Shown: piece after piece, positions 15,574-63,539 of the stretch | Numbering within the stretch: position 1 is the stretch's first letter | Layout of the letters: every line of letters starts with the position of its first letter | Assembly: GCA_022448945.1 (NCBI GenBank) | Contig: JAKVCV010000022.1 | Coordinates: 1-64,000 of the forward strand | DNA: 64,000 bases | DNA from: Saprospiraceae bacterium | Lineage (GTDB): Bacteria; Bacteroidota; Bacteroidia; Chitinophagales; Saprospiraceae | Reading direction: 5' to 3' | The notes under the pieces: model-generated | The model's input: only the letters and a program-made list of their open reading frames with translations | Database searches by the model: none | What the model was told of the DNA's origin: nothing | Position numbers and translations under genes: made by a program

Positions 15574-16778
15574 TTTTGTGATAAAATAAATTTAAACAGA
15601 CTTAGGTATGATTCTGCCTGAATTTTTAAATCATATTTTTCTACTGCATTTTGACGAATCCATGCCCTGTCGTATTTTGTTTTAAGTGATGTTATAATTA
15701 AATCTGCTAAGCAATTAGAATCGATTGTTGAACAAATTTCTCCATTCTTTCCTGGAATAATCATGTCTGGTATTCCCCCAATATCAAAACCAATCACTGG
15801 TGTTCCACAGCACAAGCTCTCAATTACCGTATTAGGTAAATTGTCTTCGATCGATGGAATCACAAAAACATCAGCAGCAGCATATGCCATAGCAATTAAA
15901 TTTTCATCTGATAGGTATCCAAGTTCATGTGATTTTTGTGGGTCAAGATTTAATTTATTTATATTTTTACCTATAATGGCTAGTTCTACATTTTTATCTT
16001 TTATTTTTTCTAGGGCATCTAGAAGATAATTTATTCCTTTACGTTTACCATCAACAGAAGCTGCTACAAATAAGATGATTTTTTTATCTTTAGGTATGTT
16101 CAATTGATCTCTGGCAAAGTCTTTAGTATAGGGTTTGAATATATGTGTTTGGATACCATAAGGTATAAGTTTATGTGTCGCATTTGGATAAAGTTCTTGA
16201 GCATTTTCTGCACAATTTTTTAACCAAATAGAGGGACTAACAATAGTAAAATGTTGATTTTCAAAAAGTGATTTTTTTAGTGTATATTGTTGTAGTATTA
16301 GATCTTTAAAACTATTTAAAGGAAATCCTTTCAAATAATGATATCCCCCTGTAAATAAAAGCATATCATGTAGTGTCCAAACAATGGGTTTTGTATTACT
16401 AGTAAAAAAAGAGGGATAGTCTAAAAAATTAGCAACCCAATGGATATTTATTATATCGGCCCAATTATAAAGATGGTGATCTTTAATATCATGAAGCGTT
16501 TCGCAAAAGCTAAATAGTTCATCTGATGGTCTTTTTTCTAAATTTTTCTTTCGTTTCTTATTGAATAAAAGTACTCTTGGAGCCTTTTTGAGCCGTTTAA
16601 ATAAAGTTCTTGGTTCATATACTTCTAAGAAAGGATAAATTTCTGGAATCTTAGTATTGTTTTTTTGTAATACCAATACTTTTGAGTTAACACCAATTGA
16701 TAATAAACCCTGATGAAGTCGAATACATGCATTTGCAGCACCGCCACTATTAGTTGTAGATAGGATTAAGATGTTCAT
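15570..16778 (-). CDS. Glycosyltransferase family 4
   Basis: LSTTNSGGAANACIRLHQGL; DVFVIPSIEDNLPNTVIESLCCGTPVIGFDIGGIPDMI. Confidence 0.88.
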   Translation of the reverse strand: MNILILSTTNSGGAANACIRLHQGLLSIGVNSKVLVLQKNNTKIPEIYPFLEVYEPRTLFKRLKKAPRVLLFNKKRKKNLEKRPSDELFSFCETLHDIKDHHLYNWADIINIHWVANFLDYPSFFTSNTKPIVWTLHDMLLFTGGYHYLKGFPLNSFKDLILQQYTLKKSLFENQHFTIVSPSIWLKNCAENAQELYPNATHKLIPYGIQTHIFKPYTKDFARDQLNIPKDKKIILFVAASVDGKRKGINYLLDALEKIKDKNVELAIIGKNINKLNLDPQKSHELGYLSDENLIAMAYAAADVFVIPSIEDNLPNTVIESLCCGTPVIGFDIGGIPDMIIPGKNGEICSTIDSNCLADLIITSLKTKYDRAWIRQNAVEKYDLKIQAESYLSLFKFILSQK

Positions 16779-17665
16779 TTTTTAATAAATCTAGCTTGAA
16801 TTGTTAATCCTTTAAACTTTTTTGTTAAAAATGGTTTTACAATTTTTGCTAATAGAAAGAAGATTCTAAAAGGTATTAGTCTAAATTTTCTCTTCCAGCT
16901 TCGCATTAGATTCCCCTCAAAATAACTATTGTGCTCTTTATTCAGTGGAGAAAAAAGGACTTGCGCTGTTTCGATATTAAAAATTTTTTCTAAATTTCTC
17001 AGTGACTCTTCAGTCCATAGTCCCATATGGTGTGGAGGTAAATTTAATGTGTTTGATTCTAAATTTATAAAACTATCATTATTTGGAACACTAATAATCA
17101 TTAATCCCCCTGGTTTAAGACTCATTAAACTAGCCTCAATAAAACTATGTACATCAGCAATATGTTCAACAACTTGAAATGAACATACAATATCATATTT
17201 TTCTGGATTCTCTTTTGCATGTTCTTGAATCGATTGAAAATGAACATCTAAGCCTTTTTTTTGGCCATCATTAACAGCTTTTTTATTTAGTTCTAGTCCT
17301 GTGATTTCGAAACCTTTCTTACTAAGTGTTGACAAAAAACCAGCCGCCCCACAACCAATTTCTAAAATTTTTTCGTTCCCCTTTAAACTATCTAATACAA
17401 CCTGATGTTCCCATTTCCAATGTTGGTAGTAAAACTCCCATTTTTGGAGTTGTTCATAAAAATGACCATCGCCTGCAATATCATAGGGGTAAAAGAATTG
17501 ATATTTTGTGTCAACACATTCATATTTTTCCACTTGATTAAGATCATCAAAAAAAGTAGAGACATCTATATCAAATTGTTTTTGGTATGCCTCGATTATA
17601 CCAGGGCAGGAGATCTTGTCAATTTTCTTTGCTTTTTTTTCAATATTTAAGGGTGAATTGGGCAT
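16775..17665 (-). CDS. Class I SAM-dependent methyltransferase
   Basis: ILEIGCGAAGFLSTLSKKGFEITGLELNKKAV; YDIVCSFQVVEHIAD; LKPGGLMIISVPN. Confidence 0.87.
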   Translation of the reverse strand: MPNSPLNIEKKAKKIDKISCPGIIEAYQKQFDIDVSTFFDDLNQVEKYECVDTKYQFFYPYDIAGDGHFYEQLQKWEFYYQHWKWEHQVVLDSLKGNEKILEIGCGAAGFLSTLSKKGFEITGLELNKKAVNDGQKKGLDVHFQSIQEHAKENPEKYDIVCSFQVVEHIADVHSFIEASLMSLKPGGLMIISVPNNDSFINLESNTLNLPPHHMGLWTEESLRNLEKIFNIETAQVLFSPLNKEHNSYFEGNLMRSWKRKFRLIPFRIFFLLAKIVKPFLTKKFKGLTIQARFIKK

Positions 17666-53334: not shown

Positions 53335-56300
53335 TTAGTCAATTATTTCACGTATCTGAAGCTCCAATTTCTGCTGTCCCTGATTTAAATCATTCCACCA
53401 CTCTTTAGACCAAATTCTATATAAGGTAATTCCTGCTTTTTTTAAGCGTTCTTCGTGATAAATATCCCATAAATATGCTTCTTCAGAATGTATTTCATGG
53501 TAAACATCAAAATATAACCCAATAATCACTTTGTTAGTGTCATTTAAAATCGCTATTGGAAGGTTAATGCCGTAGTATTCATATTCGGTTTTGATTATTA
53601 GGTTTGGAAATACATTATTTAAAAAATGGATAACGTTTTCTTTAAAATATTTTTTTTGGGATTTGTAAATTTGTTTAGCAGACTTCTTGTTACAGAATTT
53701 ATTCAACTCGTTTAAGATATCTTTTCTGTTTTTATCATTCTGATTGTTTACCGCTTTTGCGTAGCATAAGTAAGCATATAGTAACCCTATGCCAATGTTG
53801 TCATTTTTGCTGAGTTCCTTTTTATAATTCTCATATTGTTGTGATGGGATTGAATTGAACACACATACTTTATGACGCGCTCGTGTAACAATAACATTAA
53901 GTAATTTATAACTATAAGGATTTTTTAGGCTAATATAATTTTCTGATTCTTTTCCATTTTCATCTAAGCCAAAAGTTGTTGAAATTAGGACTATATCCCA
54001 CTCTTCGCCCTGAATATTATTTATGTTTTTAATTGTTAGTCCATTTTTTTTCAGCAAGTTTATTTTTTTGGATGTTAGAGGGTCTTTAATTGATTTTTTT
54101 TGAATTTTTTCAGAGATTAAGTTCCGCTGATATATATTAAAAGTTACGATCGCTACAGAAGGGCAAGTATTTTCTTCCTCTGGCAAATTTAAAAGATAGT
54201 TAATTATTTCGGTGGCTTCCTTTATATTGCAAAATTCTATAAAGTTTCCACCAACTTCATTAAATTCTATTGGTATATAATTTTTTTCTGCAGGGAAAGT
54301 CTTGAGGCGGTTGTTATAAAATGCAGCATTAGAAAAATCAATTAGATAAGGATGTTTGGAGCGATAATGTAGTTCAAGAAATGATTCGTGATAAGTGCTC
54401 TCAGCTAGACTGTATTCTAGCAATGATTCTGAATTTGATAAATAATTAATGTGTTCAACTTCTAAATCATTAGCATCGGAATATTGATTGTCTAAAAGAA
54501 GTGTACTATCTGTTTTTGCTTTGCAATGAACATCCATTTTTCTAAGAGGCGGGAGTTGAAGTTGGTCACCGGAGATGATTTTGTATTTGCCACGCATTAA
54601 AGCACAATAGGTATCTTCCAGAGTTAGTTGGCTCGCTTCATCAAATATTACAACATCAAATAAATTGGGTTGTAAAGGCAAAATTGAAGAACATATTTCA
54701 GGACTAACCAATACAACAGGGTAAAAGCTTGTAAATACATCTGTAGATGTATTTATTATCTTTTGAAGTGGTGTACGCCTAGCACTATTTTCGCTTCGAG
54801 TATTGTACAAGCTATTTAAGTTTACAGGTGCTTTGTCCTTTTGAAAGGCATATACTGCTTTACTTTGCTTGCCTCGCCAATATTCGAGTGTGTGTGTTCC
54901 TAGCATTTTTTGGAAATCATCATTTTCCTTTTTAAAATTTAATCTGGAAATATTATAGGATTTATCATCTGGAATAAATTCATCTTCGTGATGAGCTAAA
55001 AGGGCATTAAGATACCAAGAACTAAAACTTGTTTTCCAATCTTTTAATTTTGATTTTACAAGCCCGTGGAATGCAAATTGTTGTTGTTCATTTAGGCTTA
55101 ATGAAAAGAATTTTAATGCGTGATAATCTGAAAAGTTTCCAAATTCTGTTTTAAGTAATATTAAGTTTTTGTCGAGATCTTCAACTTGAGTTAAACGTTT
55201 GCGAATATTTTTTGTGACAAATTTGAATTCTATTTTGAAAACTTTACTATTAGTAAAGTTCTGTTCAAACTTATCTAAATTTTTACTTACCTCAGTTACT
55301 TTTTTGTCAAATGAAACATATTTAAATATTTTATTGGGGCCTAATTCTTTTACTAATTTTTGAATAATTTTATTTCTTTCATCATACCATTCATATACCT
55401 TAATTTTGTAATTTTTTATGTGGTTGAGTAGATTGCTGAATTTTAATTTTTTGGTGTTACTAGTGTCTATGAATTGAAAATCAAAATAATTGTATTGCCT
55501 TTGCAATTTTTGTAATTTGAAATAGGTTTCCAGAACTTCTATTTTTTGAGAATCAAGTTTTTTATACTTATTGCTGATTCGCGTCATTAAATTACGATAC
55601 AATCCGAAGTTGTTATTAAAATAATATTTGTTTTGAGCTAATCCATTTTCTATAAGATCAATAATTTTATCTGTAAGTTTAATTTTCTCAAGGTATACAT
55701 CTGAGAAATGCTGATCAAGTAACTGCTCATATTCGAATAAATAAGTAAGTATATCACGTTGTGCCGATTGTACTACTTGTGATATATTCTCAAGAGCCGT
55801 CATTATTTCTGATTCTACTTTTGTAGCATTCGATTCAAGGAAAAAGCGATCATGTAATGCATTCATTGGATGTTTAAGGGTGCCTAATTTTTTAAAAAGC
55901 ACTTCTCCTTCTGAAAGAACACTAATGATTTCATCAAATTCTATTGTTGTAAATTTGAATTGGTATCCTTTTAGATTAGCTTCCAAGATGCTATTGTCGT
56001 AATTTTTGGGGTATAATATGTATTTGCCAACTATATCTATCCATTTTAATTCGCCTGAGAGTGGTTGTAGTAATTTATTATGGTATCCTTGAAGGTGTTG
56101 AACGTGAGATGCACAACTTTTTAGCAATCTAATAAATGTTGCAGGAACTCTATAATAAGGATGTTTGTATTTGGAACGTTCAAGGACTGAATGAACTACT
56201 TTATATCGATCGCGGTATTCGTCTTCAATGATAATTGCTAATTCTTCAAAACCGATAGATTGTAGATTTTTATAAATTACTTCTAAAGCTGATTTTTTGT

Positions 56301-57348
56301 TACAAACTACTAAGCATGTTCCAGCATTTGAAAGTGTATTTGCAATTACATTGCTTAATGTGTGACTTTTTCCAGTACCAGGAGGACCTTGAATAATCAG
56401 ATTTTTCCCTTTGTCAAGGCTGTGTAGAATATGTTGTTGGTATGGGTCAGTTTTTTGTAAAGTAAAACTGTGTTTCATAAACGAAGATTTGTTAGGATCT
56501 TCAGGATTGCACTCTTTTTCTACAAGGGTTTTTAATTGCTCTATATTATTTATCGAATGATCAATGTCTTTCACTATATCAGCTTTCTGTGATCGGAATA
56601 AACCAAAAATGCCTGACCAAAGTATCTGAGGACTGTTCAAAGGCAAATCATTTATTTCTTTTTCAGTTTTTAATAATGAAATGTCGCCATCTAATACTTT
56701 TCTATATGAAGCTTGAGTTCTATCAGAAATATTCGGATTCAATTGCTTCATATGAATAAAAACCATCTCTGCAAGTTCTTTTTTGTCTAGTATTGAATCT
56801 TCGAGTATTTGATCATATAAAGACTCTAGTTTAATACCTGCTTGGTTATATAAAAAGGAAGTTAATCCGGGATTTGTTGTTACAGAAAAATTATTATTAC
56901 GCTTTATGATCCATTGAAACTCTTCTTTAAAATTTCTTTCAATATCTAAAGACCATATTAATAGGGGGGCTTTTATAATTTTTGTTTTGTCCTGAGGGGC
57001 TTTAAATAATAAAATAGGGTACCCAAAGCCAAATGTCTGCCTACCTTGTTCTTCAAAATGATCATCGTTCTCTATAGTTATACTACATAGTCGATTTATT
57101 ACTTGCCTTTTTTGATTTTCTTGAATTTTAATTTTTGAATTAGGTTCAAGAACAAAAGTAAATTCATCTTTCGTTAATAAAGAATCTAAAAAAGTTTTTG
57201 ACAACCCCTCTTTAAGTAGGTTTAAGTCTCCTAGGTCAATACGGTTTAAATACTTTTGAGGTAAAGCATTTAAGTATATAGATTGAAGGTTTCTGGAAGA
57301 AAGTTTTTGTTTGAGGTTTTTGAGGAGCCGAATGTCAAGTTTTTGCAT
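53335..57348 (-). CDS. SF1 DNA/RNA helicase fused to a C-terminal Vsr/MTES_1575-like nuclease domain
   Basis: Walker A NLIIQGPPGTGKSHTLSNVIAN; motif II VVIFDEASQL; GDQLQLPP; LELHYRSKHPYLIDFSN; LNVIVTRARHKVCVF; C-term IGLYFDVYHEIHSEEAYLWDIYHEERLKKAGITLYRIWSKEWW. Confidence 0.88.
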   Translation of the reverse strand: MQKLDIRLLKNLKQKLSSRNLQSIYLNALPQKYLNRIDLGDLNLLKEGLSKTFLDSLLTKDEFTFVLEPNSKIKIQENQKRQVINRLCSITIENDDHFEEQGRQTFGFGYPILLFKAPQDKTKIIKAPLLIWSLDIERNFKEEFQWIIKRNNNFSVTTNPGLTSFLYNQAGIKLESLYDQILEDSILDKKELAEMVFIHMKQLNPNISDRTQASYRKVLDGDISLLKTEKEINDLPLNSPQILWSGIFGLFRSQKADIVKDIDHSINNIEQLKTLVEKECNPEDPNKSSFMKHSFTLQKTDPYQQHILHSLDKGKNLIIQGPPGTGKSHTLSNVIANTLSNAGTCLVVCNKKSALEVIYKNLQSIGFEELAIIIEDEYRDRYKVVHSVLERSKYKHPYYRVPATFIRLLKSCASHVQHLQGYHNKLLQPLSGELKWIDIVGKYILYPKNYDNSILEANLKGYQFKFTTIEFDEIISVLSEGEVLFKKLGTLKHPMNALHDRFFLESNATKVESEIMTALENISQVVQSAQRDILTYLFEYEQLLDQHFSDVYLEKIKLTDKIIDLIENGLAQNKYYFNNNFGLYRNLMTRISNKYKKLDSQKIEVLETYFKLQKLQRQYNYFDFQFIDTSNTKKLKFSNLLNHIKNYKIKVYEWYDERNKIIQKLVKELGPNKIFKYVSFDKKVTEVSKNLDKFEQNFTNSKVFKIEFKFVTKNIRKRLTQVEDLDKNLILLKTEFGNFSDYHALKFFSLSLNEQQQFAFHGLVKSKLKDWKTSFSSWYLNALLAHHEDEFIPDDKSYNISRLNFKKENDDFQKMLGTHTLEYWRGKQSKAVYAFQKDKAPVNLNSLYNTRSENSARRTPLQKIINTSTDVFTSFYPVVLVSPEICSSILPLQPNLFDVVIFDEASQLTLEDTYCALMRGKYKIISGDQLQLPPLRKMDVHCKAKTDSTLLLDNQYSDANDLEVEHINYLSNSESLLEYSLAESTYHESFLELHYRSKHPYLIDFSNAAFYNNRLKTFPAEKNYIPIEFNEVGGNFIEFCNIKEATEIINYLLNLPEEENTCPSVAIVTFNIYQRNLISEKIQKKSIKDPLTSKKINLLKKNGLTIKNINNIQGEEWDIVLISTTFGLDENGKESENYISLKNPYSYKLLNVIVTRARHKVCVFNSIPSQQYENYKKELSKNDNIGIGLLYAYLCYAKAVNNQNDKNRKDILNELNKFCNKKSAKQIYKSQKKYFKENVIHFLNNVFPNLIIKTEYEYYGINLPIAILNDTNKVIIGLYFDVYHEIHSEEAYLWDIYHEERLKKAGITLYRIWSKEWWNDLNQGQQKLELQIREIID

Positions 57349-57620: not shown

Positions 57621-57665
57621 ATTGACTATGGTCAATGTAAGCGCGTCTGTTCTGTTCTATTTTTG
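57621..57665 (+). promoter_or_regulatory. TTGAC-N4-GTCAA palindrome plus TAnnTTTG promoter (copy 1)
   Basis: ATTGAC-TATG-GTCAAT at 57621-57636; TATTTTTG at 57658-57665; 22 nt between GTCAA and TA. Confidence 0.75.
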
Positions 57666-57747
57666 TTATATGATGTCAAAAACATACCTATGGTCTTTTG
57701 ATATTTTTTATTCATTTTACCAAACAAAATTAAATCGGAACCAAACC

Positions 57748-58785
57748 ATGTACAATTTAAATCATATTACTATTAAATTATTACCATTGATTGCTAGTTT
57801 GCTTTTAGCTGTAAATGTCCGTGCCCAGGATATTCTATTTGCGGACCCACATTTAAAAGCAGTATTAGTGGCTAATAATCAAGTTAATACCAACGGAGAT
57901 GGAGAAATTCAAAAAGCTGAAGCTTTGGCTTTTACAGGACTGTTAGATGTATCGTCATCATCAATTTATAATATGGCAGGAATAGAATATTTCCAAGGAA
58001 TTACTTCTTTGGATTGTAGGAATAATTCAATTACATCTTTAAACTTAAGTTCAAATAGTAATATTGTTCGACTAAATTGTAGCAATAATAAGTTGCATTT
58101 ATTAAATGTAGATAAATGTACAGATTTATTGACTTTAGATTGTAATAATAATAATTTAACAGATATTGACTTGTCATTTAATTTGATGTTGAATCTTTTA
58201 TATTGTCAGGATAATAAGTTGTCTGATTTAGACTTGTCAGTTAATACAGATCTTCAACAATTGGATTGTAGTAGTAATCAAATTTCTACCCTTAATGTTA
58301 GCAATAATAGTTACCTGAGTACTTTTAATTGTTCTAATAATCAACTTACAGAATTGAATATTGCTAATAACAATAATAATAATATCCAAAGTTCTTCTTT
58401 TGATGCCAAAAACAATAATTTAAATTGTATTCAAGTAGATGATGCTCATTATTCTATGCAAAATTGGTCTACTAAAATTGATTCTTTTGCATACTTCAGT
58501 ATTAGTTGTATTGTTTTAGGGGAACAAACTTCTAATACAGAATATTTAGGTACTTTAAAAGTTTATCCTAATCCAGTTGGTGAAGTTTTCACTGTGGAAC
58601 TAGAAAAAACATATTTCAATGTTACGTTGGAAATTTATAACGTGTTTGGAAGGAGGGTAATCGTTAAGAACTTTAAGGAATTTAAATATGGAAACATAAA
58701 TTTAGACTTAAATTCTGGTGTGTATATTCTTACAATTAAATCCGAAGAAGGAATGGCAAAGTCTACTAGTATAATAAAATCTTAA
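57748..58785 (+). CDS. Secreted EF-hand/leucine-rich-repeat protein with T9SS sorting domain (paralog A)
   Basis: Signal peptide MYNLNHITIKLLPLIASLLLAVNVRAQ; NTNGDGEIQKAE; repeated LDCSxNxIxxLNLSxNxxL units; VYPNPVGEVFTVEL...SGVYILTIKSEEGMAKSTSIIKS. ATG at 57748 preferred over the TTG at 57613. Confidence 0.87.
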   Translation: MYNLNHITIKLLPLIASLLLAVNVRAQDILFADPHLKAVLVANNQVNTNGDGEIQKAEALAFTGLLDVSSSSIYNMAGIEYFQGITSLDCRNNSITSLNLSSNSNIVRLNCSNNKLHLLNVDKCTDLLTLDCNNNNLTDIDLSFNLMLNLLYCQDNKLSDLDLSVNTDLQQLDCSSNQISTLNVSNNSYLSTFNCSNNQLTELNIANNNNNNIQSSSFDAKNNNLNCIQVDDAHYSMQNWSTKIDSFAYFSISCIVLGEQTSNTEYLGTLKVYPNPVGEVFTVELEKTYFNVTLEIYNVFGRRVIVKNFKEFKYGNINLDLNSGVYILTIKSEEGMAKSTSIIKS

Positions 58786-58926
58786 AACAATAATTCAAAG
58801 GACTTTTTTAAAGAGAGTGGCTATATAGATTTACGGGTTTTCAGGTAAGATTATTTAATTCGGTTAAAATTCCGCTAATATTGATTAATAAATTAAAATT
58901 TTAATTTTTATCAATAATTTAACTTC

Positions 58927-58970
58927 TTGACATTGGTCAATGTAGCCACATCTACATTCATTTATCTTTG
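58927..58970 (+). promoter_or_regulatory. TTGAC-N4-GTCAA palindrome plus TAnnTTTG promoter (copy 2)
   Basis: TTGAC-ATTG-GTCAA at 58927-58940; TATCTTTG at 58963-58970; 22-nt spacing. Confidence 0.78.
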
Positions 58971-59075
58971 TAATTATAAACGTATACGCGTTTTTTGCAC
59001 ATTAGATTTTATTTGTAAAATAACCTTAACTTTTAATTTACATAAAAAACTTACTATTTAATAAAACTCGAAATT

Positions 59076-59639
59076 ATGAAAACTAAGGAAAATAACATGT
59101 ACACATTGTTGCTTTTAATTTTCAGCTTAGTTGTAAACACCGCAATGTTAATTTTAATTATTAGCTTACTGCTGAACTCATCTTTAAAGGCTCAAGACCT
59201 TACTTTAACGAATGATTATTTCGATTCAGAGGATATAGGAAAAACACCGCTTTTTGCACAACCAGATCAAGCAAGTTTTACTGAACAAGAAAATCTTACT
59301 TCGAAAGAAAATAATTTCGATCACAAAAAACAATTTAATTTGGTTGTAGTTTATGAATCAGTTGCTACCTGGGCTCAAGTTTTCAATTCTGGTCTATATT
59401 CTCAGACGGGGAGTGAAACTATGAACGGAATAATGGCATCATATGATATGACGATAATTGAACAAATAGAAATTGATGACATTAATGAATGTATAGTGTT
59501 GGAAATTAATAATTTGTATGAAAAACCTATTGATGTCGCTCGTCAATTATCTATGATAGAACATGTTGTAATGGTATATATAAAAGAAATTCCTCAAGGT
59601 GAAATTTTGGGGTCTGATCATAAATTAAGTCAATATTAG
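59076..59639 (+). CDS. Small secreted protein of unknown function
   Basis: Hydrophobic N-terminal signal ending ...SSLKAQ; conserved-looking QFNLVVVYESVATWAQVFNSGLYSQTG...VARQLSMIEHVVMVYIKEIP; no family recognised. Confidence 0.8.
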   Translation: MKTKENNMYTLLLLIFSLVVNTAMLILIISLLLNSSLKAQDLTLTNDYFDSEDIGKTPLFAQPDQASFTEQENLTSKENNFDHKKQFNLVVVYESVATWAQVFNSGLYSQTGSETMNGIMASYDMTIIEQIEIDDINECIVLEINNLYEKPIDVARQLSMIEHVVMVYIKEIPQGEILGSDHKLSQY

Positions 59640-59750
59640 AATTTAAAAAGCATTTATAAATTTATAGCCTTTGAATCATAAGTTCAATAGCAATTAAATT
59701 ATTTGAAGAATAATAAGATTAAATGTTTTGTCTTTTTACCTATGAAGTAT

Positions 59751-59795
59751 AAAAAAGGCTCCAAGTGATTTTTTAATTACTTGGCCTTTTTTTTT
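59751..59795 (+). terminator. Intrinsic terminator
   Basis: AAAAAAGGCTCCAAGT ... ACTTGGCCTTTTTTTTT stem-loop with T-run after the 59076-59639 gene. Confidence 0.78.
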
Positions 59796-59984
59796 ATGTC
59801 AATCTTAAATTGTAAAGCTTCAATATATATCAATATCTATTTGTAATGAGCCAATATAAGCTTTATTGAAATAATTTTCCAAGGGTTTCAAACAACAGAA
59901 AAGTCCTATAAAATGCTAATTATCAGTATTATATGCTTCTTTTTTGAGGATAATTTAAATTTAAATAAAAAAAATATGCTGTTC

Positions 59985-60028
59985 TTGACAAACGTCAATG
60001 ATAATTTTTTTGATCTGGTCTATATTTG
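59985..60028 (+). promoter_or_regulatory. TTGAC-N4-GTCAA palindrome plus TAnnTTTG promoter (copy 3)
   Basis: TTGAC-AAAC-GTCAA at 59985-59998; TATATTTG at 60021-60028; 22-nt spacing. Confidence 0.78.
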
Positions 60029-60113: not shown

Positions 60114-61154
60114 ATGAAAAATTTAATTAGAATTAATCCCGCATTATTACTTTTTTTAGCTTGTATGTTTACAGGTTTAAAAACACACGCACAGAGCAAC
60201 ATTACTTTTGTAGACCCACACTTTAAGGCTGTACTTGTCGCTAATCCTCTTATAGATGTTAATGGCGATGGTGAAATTCAGAAATCAGAAGCTCAGGCTT
60301 TTGTTGGACCATTAAATGTAGCTTCATCTTCTATTGTTGATATGACAGGAATAGAACACTTTTCTAACCTAATAGTATTAGATTGTAGTCGAAATGCTAT
60401 TACTGAATTGGATCTTAATGCCAATGAAGCACTTGTTCGTTTATCATGCAATGATAATCGTATTACTGATCTTGAAATCACAGATTGTACAGAATTAAGA
60501 ATGTTAGATTGTAGTAAAAATCGAATAACTAACTTACAAGTAGGAACAAATAATCTTTTAGAATTTCTTACATGTACTCACAATGACTTAGCATCATTAG
60601 ATTTAATAAATAATATAGAGCTTAGAATACTTGATTGCAGCAGTAATCTGATCAATTCTTTGGATCTTAGTTATAATATTCAAATGACTGCTTTGGATTG
60701 TTCAAAAAACAATTTATCACAATTGAATGTAGCGAATAGTAATAATGTAAATATTGCTGCTAATTCATTTGATGCAAAAAATAATAACCTACAATGTATA
60801 GAAGTTGATGATCCGACACATGCGTCACAGAACTGGAATAGTCAAATTGATGCATGGTCATATTTTAGTAGTAGTTGTATGGCCTTAGGTGGTCAAAATA
60901 TTAATGCTGAATTTGTTAATGAATTCACAGTTTATCCTAACCCTGTTGATAAAGTTCTTACGCTGGATCTAGCAGAAGCTTATGAAAGTGTAACTGTAGA
61001 AATTTTTAATACACTTGGGGCATTGGTGTTTACACAACATTTTAAAGACATGACAAAGGAAAACATCAATTTAAGCCTGAATGCTGGTATTTACACAGTC
61101 CGTGTAAACACCTCAAAAGGTCATTCCAGTATAACTAGGCTGGTCAAGAAATAA
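60114..61154 (+). CDS. Secreted EF-hand/leucine-rich-repeat protein with T9SS sorting domain (paralog B)
   Basis: Signal peptide ...TGLKTHAQ; canonical EF-hand loop DVNGDGEIQKSE; LDCSKNRITNLQVGTNNLLEFL-type repeats; VYPNPVDKVLTLDL...AGIYTVRVNTSKGHSSITRLVKK. Confidence 0.9.
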   Translation: MKNLIRINPALLLFLACMFTGLKTHAQSNITFVDPHFKAVLVANPLIDVNGDGEIQKSEAQAFVGPLNVASSSIVDMTGIEHFSNLIVLDCSRNAITELDLNANEALVRLSCNDNRITDLEITDCTELRMLDCSKNRITNLQVGTNNLLEFLTCTHNDLASLDLINNIELRILDCSSNLINSLDLSYNIQMTALDCSKNNLSQLNVANSNNVNIAANSFDAKNNNLQCIEVDDPTHASQNWNSQIDAWSYFSSSCMALGGQNINAEFVNEFTVYPNPVDKVLTLDLAEAYESVTVEIFNTLGALVFTQHFKDMTKENINLSLNAGIYTVRVNTSKGHSSITRLVKK

Positions 61155-61265: not shown

Positions 61266-63539
61266 CTAACGAAATAGTGTTATATCTCCATTAACAATTA
61301 CAGTACGACCATCAATCAATAAAAGTTCTGCAGAGTAAACATATACTCCAGGATTTAACTGTTTTCCTCTGAAACTTCCATCCCAGCCATAATTAGCTGT
61401 ATTAGGCGGAAAGTTATTTTGGTTAAATACCATTTCACCCCACCGGTCAAATATTCTGAATGATTTTACTTTTTCTACATCTCCAGGGCTAAAAATCATT
61501 AAAATATCATTCACACCATTATTGTTTGGGCTGAAAGCATTTGGAATAAAAACTCGTGTTTCCTCTATTACTTCAATTGAAAAACTAGTTGTGTCATAAC
61601 AACCTTGGATGTCCATGCCAATGATAGTATAGGTTGTAGATTCTGTTATATTAATTATTGGATTAGCGCAATTGCTGCAGCTTAACCCTGTTGTTGGTGT
61701 CCATTGGTATCCAACTTGAGAGTTTGTATTTTGTTGTATATTGACGCCTAATTGTTCGCCTATTCGCATTATAGTGTCATTAGGAGCTTGAATTGCTAGT
61801 AAAAAAGTAGGTTCTGTTAGGGTAAAGGGGATTTGATTGTTACAGCCATAATTGTCTAGTGTATAAAGCATGTGATTCCCTGCAGATAGATTATCAAATT
61901 GAATGTTGGAGTTATATGTAATTCCATCTAATGAATATTGGTAGGGTTCATATCCCCCAATAGTACTATCTATAGTTAATGAACCATTATTTTGGCCATT
62001 ACATTGTACATTTTCAGTATTGAAATAATTTGTTAATGTTATATTCTCTATAAATATTTGATCAGATAAAACAATTTCACAGCCATAAGAATCGGTTATT
62101 GTTACTGTATGAATTCCTGCCGATAAGCCAGTTGCAAGACTATTAGTTTGTCCGTTGTCCCATAAATATGATAATGGTTGAGAACCACCATTTGCATTTA
62201 ACTCTATTGTCCCTGTATTTTGGTCACAAATGATATTTGTTGTAGTTGGATTAGTCGATAATGGTGTACTGATAAGCGTAAAAGTAGTGGGATCGCCTAT
62301 TGCGAGACTATTAGGATTGTCTGATAATATTGTATCTTTTAGAGGTAGTGGAAGATTACTTAAAACAGCTTGATTAGTATAATCGGTTCCTGTATAATTA
62401 CAAGGAATACGCGCATCTATACTGAAAGAGGATTTTCCCTGTGGTAAATTGTCAATTGAAAAATTTGCGTTGGTGTTTCCAATTGTATTTGTATTTCCAG
62501 ATAATTGAATGTTAACGAGGTTGTAGGGGTTTGAAGTCCATTGAAATCCACCTGTAAGCATATCATCAAAGGACAAGGAATTGGTAATAGCAGAAAATGA
62601 TTGATTAAAAAATTCAAAATGGTAAGAAATAGTATCGCCAGGCATAAATGAACCTGTAACAGATTTTGTCATCTCAACGCCAAAGGAGCAGGAACAACCA
62701 TCATTACTAGATTTACTAGGTCCCGTTCCAATCTGTAATCCAATGCCAGTACTGGGGTTGATTTTAATCATTTTCGTTCCCTGATATCCAAGAATATCTC
62801 CCTGTGCATTAAAATACATTGCTCCAGTCCAGCCCCAGCTGTTGATTGCTAGGGGGGCATTGCCAGGGATAATTGTTTGAGAGCCCGTATTTGGGTTTAT
62901 TTTAAAGAGCAGTTTTGGATTACCACTCCAGCCATAAATTTGATTATCAACAGGATTAAAAACAATATCTGCAGAACCATAGGTGCCCGTACCTCCGATA
63001 GTTGTCAAAGAAAGATTAGCGATGTCAATTTTGCGTAGTATATTATCTCCAAAGACATAATAGTTGCCAAGGTTATCAAAAGTTCCTCCGTTTATGAAAA
63101 ATGAATTAAGGCCATTGACATTACCAAGAAATTCTACATTGCCATTTGCATCAATCCTGTAAATCTTTGAATCAGTTGTTCCCATTCCATACATTAGGTT
63201 ATCTAAAGGGTTATATGCAAGCGAATTGAATGAGTTTAGATTGCCATTTTGCGATAGGTTAGTTATGAATGTAAATTGAACAGGGTTTACATCAACTTTA
63301 TATAAAATAAAATCATTGTTATCTCTAGCGCTTTGATATAAACTACCGTCACATTCAAAAGGTTGACATACTTCGTCAATTGAACCATCATTGTCGTTGT
63401 CGATACCATCTCCACAGATTTCATGTTGCCCTATTGTTACGAAGGATAAAATAAGGAATATATTGAGTAAAAATATTTTTATTATATAGTGCAAATTGGG
63501 TAGTTGTAGGGTCTGATTAATAATATTTTGATTTAACAT
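61266..63539 (-). CDS. SprB-repeat, gliding-motility-associated (T9SS type B) surface protein
   Basis: EICGDGIDNDNDGSIDEVC metal-binding-like motif; propeller-like NPLDNLMYGMG..DSKIYRID; SprB-like YLWDNGQTNSLATGLSAGIHTVTITDSYGC; C-term VFIPNAFSPNNNGVNDILMIFSPGDVEKVKSFRIFDRWGEMVFNQ...GVYVYSAELLLIDGRTVIVNGDITLFR. Confidence 0.9.
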   Translation of the reverse strand: MLNQNIINQTLQLPNLHYIIKIFLLNIFLILSFVTIGQHEICGDGIDNDNDGSIDEVCQPFECDGSLYQSARDNNDFILYKVDVNPVQFTFITNLSQNGNLNSFNSLAYNPLDNLMYGMGTTDSKIYRIDANGNVEFLGNVNGLNSFFINGGTFDNLGNYYVFGDNILRKIDIANLSLTTIGGTGTYGSADIVFNPVDNQIYGWSGNPKLLFKINPNTGSQTIIPGNAPLAINSWGWTGAMYFNAQGDILGYQGTKMIKINPSTGIGLQIGTGPSKSSNDGCSCSFGVEMTKSVTGSFMPGDTISYHFEFFNQSFSAITNSLSFDDMLTGGFQWTSNPYNLVNIQLSGNTNTIGNTNANFSIDNLPQGKSSFSIDARIPCNYTGTDYTNQAVLSNLPLPLKDTILSDNPNSLAIGDPTTFTLISTPLSTNPTTTNIICDQNTGTIELNANGGSQPLSYLWDNGQTNSLATGLSAGIHTVTITDSYGCEIVLSDQIFIENITLTNYFNTENVQCNGQNNGSLTIDSTIGGYEPYQYSLDGITYNSNIQFDNLSAGNHMLYTLDNYGCNNQIPFTLTEPTFLLAIQAPNDTIMRIGEQLGVNIQQNTNSQVGYQWTPTTGLSCSNCANPIINITESTTYTIIGMDIQGCYDTTSFSIEVIEETRVFIPNAFSPNNNGVNDILMIFSPGDVEKVKSFRIFDRWGEMVFNQNNFPPNTANYGWDGSFRGKQLNPGVYVYSAELLLIDGRTVIVNGDITLFR

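Follow-up and report, generated by a model that had tools for sequence, protein, structure and literature searches.

The classic position of a class II activator is −41.5 relative to the transcription start, and the E-x-x-S-R triad of the recognition helix is a feature of FNR. The promoters described here resemble the class II promoters of E. coli FNR and CRP in the −41.5 centre and in the FNR-like TTGAY half-sites, and the helix of the CRP-like proteins of the same genome shares the E-x-x-S-R triad with FNR. Unlike in E. coli, the promoter is of the −33/TAnnTTTG type, and the candidate regulators have neither the FNR cysteine cluster nor the cAMP-contact residues of CRP. Their closest solved relative is 3dn7 (PDB), a 194-aa cyclic-nucleotide-binding regulatory protein which, like them, stops at the end of the recognition helix and lacks the usual wing; its record names no operator or target. 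The operator of HcpR1, wyTTGACnnnnGTCAArw, described in delta-proteobacteria and cyanobacteria (PMC1274295), has the same half-site and N4 gap, and HcpR1 belongs to the same superfamily, with Glu 181 and not Arg at 180. HcpR1 controls hcp and frdX in NO metabolism, whereas here the operator precedes components of the type IX secretion system (T9SS) and exported proteins, and the regulator would be a short Bacteroidota-type CRP. Known T9SS regulation proceeds through PorXY/SigP in Porphyromonas and an ECF-type motif in Flavobacterium psychrophilum (PMC9723704). These systems coordinate the transcription of T9SS components, as the boxes described here might, but they employ an ECF sigma factor and another promoter motif, whereas here a CRP-type operator is placed on a housekeeping promoter. 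The literature searched contained no published CRP-type regulator of T9SS, and no published operator was found there for the short Bacteroidota CRP class.

The window, a stretch of 64,000 nt, corresponds to positions 1-64000 of contig C15 in a genome of 4.35 Mb (G000). The original prediction described three TTGAC-N4-GTCAATG palindromes in it, each at a fixed distance from a TAnnTTTG element and followed by a gene after 82-105 nt. All three palindromes and all three elements are present, at each site 22 nt separate GTCAA from TA, and the elements end 82, 105 and 85 nt ahead of the start codons (Table 1). An in-frame ATG/TTG upstream of gene 1 overlaps box 1, and the signal-peptide start is the likelier beginning of this gene. 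Gene 2 has no family match; a kinship with the boxed 187- and 190-aa proteins of two genomes of the same genus (G671 and G688) was considered and rejected, as no relationship was found.

Table 1. Operator boxes, promoter elements and genes in the window (C15), and CRP-like paralogues elsewhere in the genome. Predicted starts take the −12 to −5 position of TAnnTTTG from PMC9723704.
Feature	Position	Strand	Remarks
Operator box 1, TTGACTATGGTCAATG	57622..57637	+	TTGAC-N4-GTCAA palindrome followed by TG; core 57622-57635
−7 element, promoter 1, TATTTTTG	57658..57665	+	predicted transcription start ~57670
Gene 1	57748..58785	+	secreted leucine-rich-repeat (LRR) protein, 345 aa, T9SS sorting tail (Por_Secre_tail)
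Operator box 2, TTGACATTGGTCAATG	58927..58942	+	palindrome core 58927-58940
−7 element, promoter 2, TATCTTTG	58963..58970	+	predicted start ~58975
Gene 2	59076..59639	+	187-aa protein, long hydrophobic N-terminus ending KAQ; start uncertain, internal Met possible
Operator box 3, TTGACAAACGTCAATG	59985..60000	+	palindrome core 59985-59998
−7 element, promoter 3, TATATTTG	60021..60028	+	predicted start ~60033
Gene 3	60114..61154	+	secreted LRR protein, 346 aa, T9SS sorting tail; 46% identical to gene 1
CRP-like paralogue, ~195 aa	C14:8869-9444		recognition helix PETLSR
CRP-like paralogue, ~195 aa	C18:36690-37268		recognition helix PETLSR
CRP-like paralogue, ~195 aa	C23:166314-166904		recognition helix PETLSR
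CRP-like paralogue, ~195 aa	C23:167603-168190		recognition helix PETLSR

TTGAC-N4-GTCAA occurs nine times in the whole genome, against four occurrences of the reversed control. When the gap was left free (TTGAC-N4-GTCAA, then N{10,40}, then TAnnTTTG), all five sites with a TAnnTTTG element showed a spacer of exactly 22, and the chance of five sites sharing one of 31 spacings is ~1e-6. Beyond the window, the two other strict sites are C3:53959 and C7:49380. The relaxed motif TTGAY-N4-RTCAATG-N20-TAnnTTTG, with at most two mismatches, has 21 matches in the genome against one for the reversed control, and the regulon is therefore genome-wide and not the local set of three genes first proposed. 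Four of the 21 matches look spurious, three of them lying inside genes (C3:367281, C11:75221 and C56:40102) and one lacking the TG (C11:51556); at least 15 sites with no more than one mismatch to the relaxed motif are spread over several contigs. The half-site TTGAC, as originally given, is present at all three window sites, but the half-site of the regulon is broader, TTGAY.

The box-spacing architecture extends well beyond this genome. In the family, 149 other genomes were scanned, and their 72 TTGAC-N4-GTCAA sites most often had spacer 22 (15 sites; binomial P ~1e-8), with a shoulder at 23 (8 sites); background bins hold one or two sites each. A further 394 genomes of the class yielded 15 matches at spacer 22 against two at spacer 18. 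A random distance between motif and TAnnTTTG had been named as the outcome that would refute the pattern, and the scans instead returned a distance that is fixed in the genome, modal in the family and in excess in the class. The TG following GTCAA is mainly a trait of the genus.

The genes behind the boxes are linked to type IX secretion. C3:53959 precedes another LRR/sorting-tail paralogue, and C7:49380 a 1095-aa laminin-G-type protein with a T9SS sorting tail. Boxes also precede a PorU2-type sortase at C23:170978 (NF052324, 682 bits) and PorV at C23:175937 (NF033710, 449 bits); other boxed genes encode small secreted proteins on C5, a secreted protein on C13, a lipoprotein-like product on C7 and a 992-aa product on C20. 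Signal peptides were assigned to 9 of 14 targets against 26% of genes (P = 0.004), a figure to be taken as indicative, since it comes from a crude heuristic with some target starts trimmed by hand. The three boxed LRR genes, two of which lie close together in the window, are paralogues with 46-48% protein identity to the gene at 60114. Two further LRR paralogues (C1:91929 and C3:132736) carry no box, and a scan of the contigs for LRR relatives returned only proteins of 26-43% identity. Boxed secretion components and exported proteins are probably switched on together.

In two genomes of the same genus, G688 and G671, boxes precede orthologues of several of the boxed genes. Both have boxes before the orthologues of the 992-aa gene of C20 and the 1095-aa secreted protein of C7. 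G688 has them also before three LRR relatives and, in the arrangement seen at C23, before porU2, porV and a divergent gene (about 487-488 aa). At the place of the C23 pair of CRP genes, G688 carries two CRP genes with 86% and 77% identity to the C23:167603 protein. Across five sets of orthologous promoters, the core is 92% identical, against 36% for the spacer and 34% for the flanks; the core identity is inflated because the sites were collected by pattern. The coincidence of boxes with orthologous genes is not a product of that collection. TTGAC and TTGAT exchange between orthologous promoters, and both forms therefore belong to one regulon.

TAnnTTTG spans −12 to −5 in F. psychrophilum (PMC9723704). 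Given this position, a spacer of 22 puts the arms of the box at −48 to −44 and −39 to −35 and its centre at −41.5, in agreement with the −41 of the original prediction. The box is a dyad of two 5-nt arms 4 nt apart, as at class II sites, and its centre is fixed near −41.5, with overlap of the upstream promoter element, the absolute position being taken over from the F. psychrophilum TAnnTTTG. Promoters without a box show a TTG peak 20 nt ahead of TA (10 of 114 promoters, compared with 2.3% of controls taken from coding regions; P = 3e-4, uncorrected for ~20 positions). The TG of GTCAATG falls exactly at this −33 TG; it follows the box at every one of the 24 collected sites, which were gathered in part by this very pattern, and at all 24 the −33 TTG reads ATG, with its first T replaced by A. 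The box had been supposed to replace the −33 element. It does lie at −41.5 beside it, but the replacement is not complete, the −33 TG being kept. A weakened −33 element beside a fixed dimer site has the look that would be expected of an activator-dependent promoter. Besides the box and the −7 element, the 24 promoters are enriched in T at −17 (20/24), G at −16 (14/24) and T at −14 (17/24), perhaps forming an extended −7 element.

Gene linkage supports the view that the palindrome is the landing site of a CRP/FNR-family regulator, as the resemblance of the half-sites had first suggested. All 14 distinct spacer-22 sites of the family are intergenic, mostly 6-46 nt ahead of a start codon, and seven of them have a CRP/FNR-like gene as the immediate upstream neighbour, so that CRP gene, box and target follow one another. 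A CRP-family gene likewise adjoins 7 of the 15 spacer-22 sites of the class. Together, 14 of 29 spacer-22 sites have such a neighbour, against 1 of 18 sites with control spacers (Fisher P = 0.002), although the 29 are not all independent: a module of CRP gene, box and epimerase accounts for three, two sites come from one genus, and the independent cases number closer to 11 than to 14. The one such neighbour at a control spacer, L262, was judged by eye to be an FNR-like gene that is truncated. In the module itself, a CRP gene and an NmrA/epimerase-like gene accompany a TTGAC box with spacer 22; it is seen in four genomes (L183, L185, L251 and L337), one of which belongs to another family. The spacer-22 sites of other genomes lack an adjoining CRP gene in half of the cases, and the three boxes of the window have no CRP gene next to them. 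In the upstream regions of the four CRP genes of the window's genome, no autoregulatory box was detected. Palindromes were also sought de novo around 30 CRP loci, but the outcome was too sparse for a general code to be drawn from it.

The look-up of a CRP/FNR-family regulator in the genome returned four paralogues (Table 1), two of which, the C23 pair, lie beside the boxed porU2-porV locus. They are 60-69% identical to the C23:167603 paralogue, and their best matches in the sampled family reach 35-41%. All four score above the cut-off for PF00027 (cNMP-binding fold); matches to PF13545 stay below its cut-off and cover only positions 18-46 of its 70, which the missing wing explains. In alignment with E. 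coli CRP, the recognition helix GMTPETLSR places Pro at 180, Glu at 181 and Arg at 185. The published correlation between helix and operator pairs R180 with G3 and E181 with A6 (PMC1274295), and a helix with E181 and R185 but not R180 fits TTGA half-sites. xPETLSR recurs in the four proteins and in most of the box-adjacent CRPs of ~190 aa. One adjacent CRP, L196, has Ala in place of Glu at 181, and several class-level ones are of longer types (~230 aa). At the cAMP-contact positions of E. coli CRP, the protein aligned carries Leu for E72 and Ser for R82, and the four sequences contain no FNR-type N-terminal cysteine cluster. By the proximity to boxes at C23 and by their helix residues, the four paralogues are the likeliest regulators of the boxes in this genome. 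A small secreted gene beside the C14 CRP was rejected as a paralogue of the boxed C5 genes (E = 0.065). Two shorter CRP-like proteins of 157 and 154 aa (L059, C24 ~16749-17099; L060, C14:51133-51390) have a cNMP-binding domain without a helix-turn-helix (HTH) and end alike in LMALYKNLEN; L060 is flanked by a murE-like gene on one side and a mraY-like gene on the other. Lacking the HTH, the two proteins could act as partners to the four CRPs.

The reading that we consider probable, with good confidence, is one of CRP/FNR-type class II activation by four CRPs at ~15 T9SS-linked promoters. The promoters would be of the housekeeping Bacteroidota kind, with TAnnTTTG at −7, and a dimeric regulator of this superfamily would bind the palindrome around a centre at −41.5. 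This site immediately precedes the −33 element and shares part of it, and from there the dimer would activate transcription in the class II manner. The four PETLSR paralogues may act in this way on ~15 promoters serving type IX secretion, those of PorU2, PorV, the LRR and laminin-G sorting-tail proteins and other exported proteins, presumably under a shared signal. This goes beyond the first reading in its T9SS-linked scope, in the linkage to regulator genes, in relaxing the half-site and in relating the box to the −33 element.

The same operator and protein family could serve repression, with a dimer over −48 to −35 blocking the contact of sigma with −33; the operator abuts and partly includes this element, and a bound protein could occlude sigma region 4. 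We regard a repressor as unlikely, since its centre would occupy the classic class II activator position, the invariable ATG in place of the −33 TTG at the collected sites suggests a promoter needing help, and the spacing is nearly invariant, whereas a repressor would need no fixed 22 nt. Still less probable is an HcpR-type reading. The box has the form of the HcpR operator, TTGACnnnnGTCAA, and fits the HcpR1 consensus (PMC1274295), but the boxed genes encode parts of the secretion system and secreted proteins, with no hcp, nor, nir or hmp among those identified; the CRPs are short, with 3dn7 as the best PDB match, and the CRP loci read show no linkage to hcp.

That the sites are duplicated copies of one ancestral promoter, sharing no common regulator, might be suggested by three of the five strict targets being LRR paralogues, two of them close neighbours. 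The spacers of the five strict sites agree at only 4-10 of 20 positions, however, and the flanks at 13-27 of 60; the intervening sequence is as poorly conserved as originally stated, and the sites are therefore not simply a recently copied promoter. Unrelated genes are boxed as well (porU2, porV, the C20 gene and the laminin-G protein), and the same spacing recurs across the class, which leaves copying as a very improbable account, while an old common origin of the three LRR promoters is possible.

Activation by the four CRPs may be an instance of a broader pattern, which we favour with some reserve. It would concern a class of short CRPs without a wing that has expanded in Bacteroidota, with four paralogues in this genome and at least ten in some relatives. 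Such CRPs would activate housekeeping promoters from an operator at −41.5 beside the −33 element, often that of the next-door gene, and in this genus would have been recruited to a dispersed regulon that ties the sortase PorU2 and PorV to T9SS cargo. Bacteroidota genomes hold many CRP-like regulators, and a rule of operator, spacing and promoter that also predicts the neighbouring target would make the class readable from sequence. The boxes also give a testable transcriptional tie between T9SS components and cargo outside the PorXY/SigP route.

Other motif occurrences and neighbouring genes were observed in passing. A perfect TTGACATTTGTCAATG palindrome at G000:C1:614443-614456, with TGCA on both sides and without a good −7 element, lies ~290 nt ahead of an aconitase-like gene. 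One genome, G132, contains at least six copies of TTGACTATCGTCAAAAATTCCC...GTATA (on C52, C78, C186, C192, C253 and C290) with TAnnTTTG at spacer 28, which looks like a dispersed repeat and not an operator. In the window, the minus strand beside box 1 (53335-57348) encodes an SF1-type helicase of 1337 aa that carries an MTES_1575 endonuclease-like domain at its C-terminus and resembles defence-type helicase-nucleases. Convergent with gene 3, the minus-strand gene at 61266-63539 encodes a protein of 757 aa that has SprB repeats and a T9SS signal of the CHU_C type.
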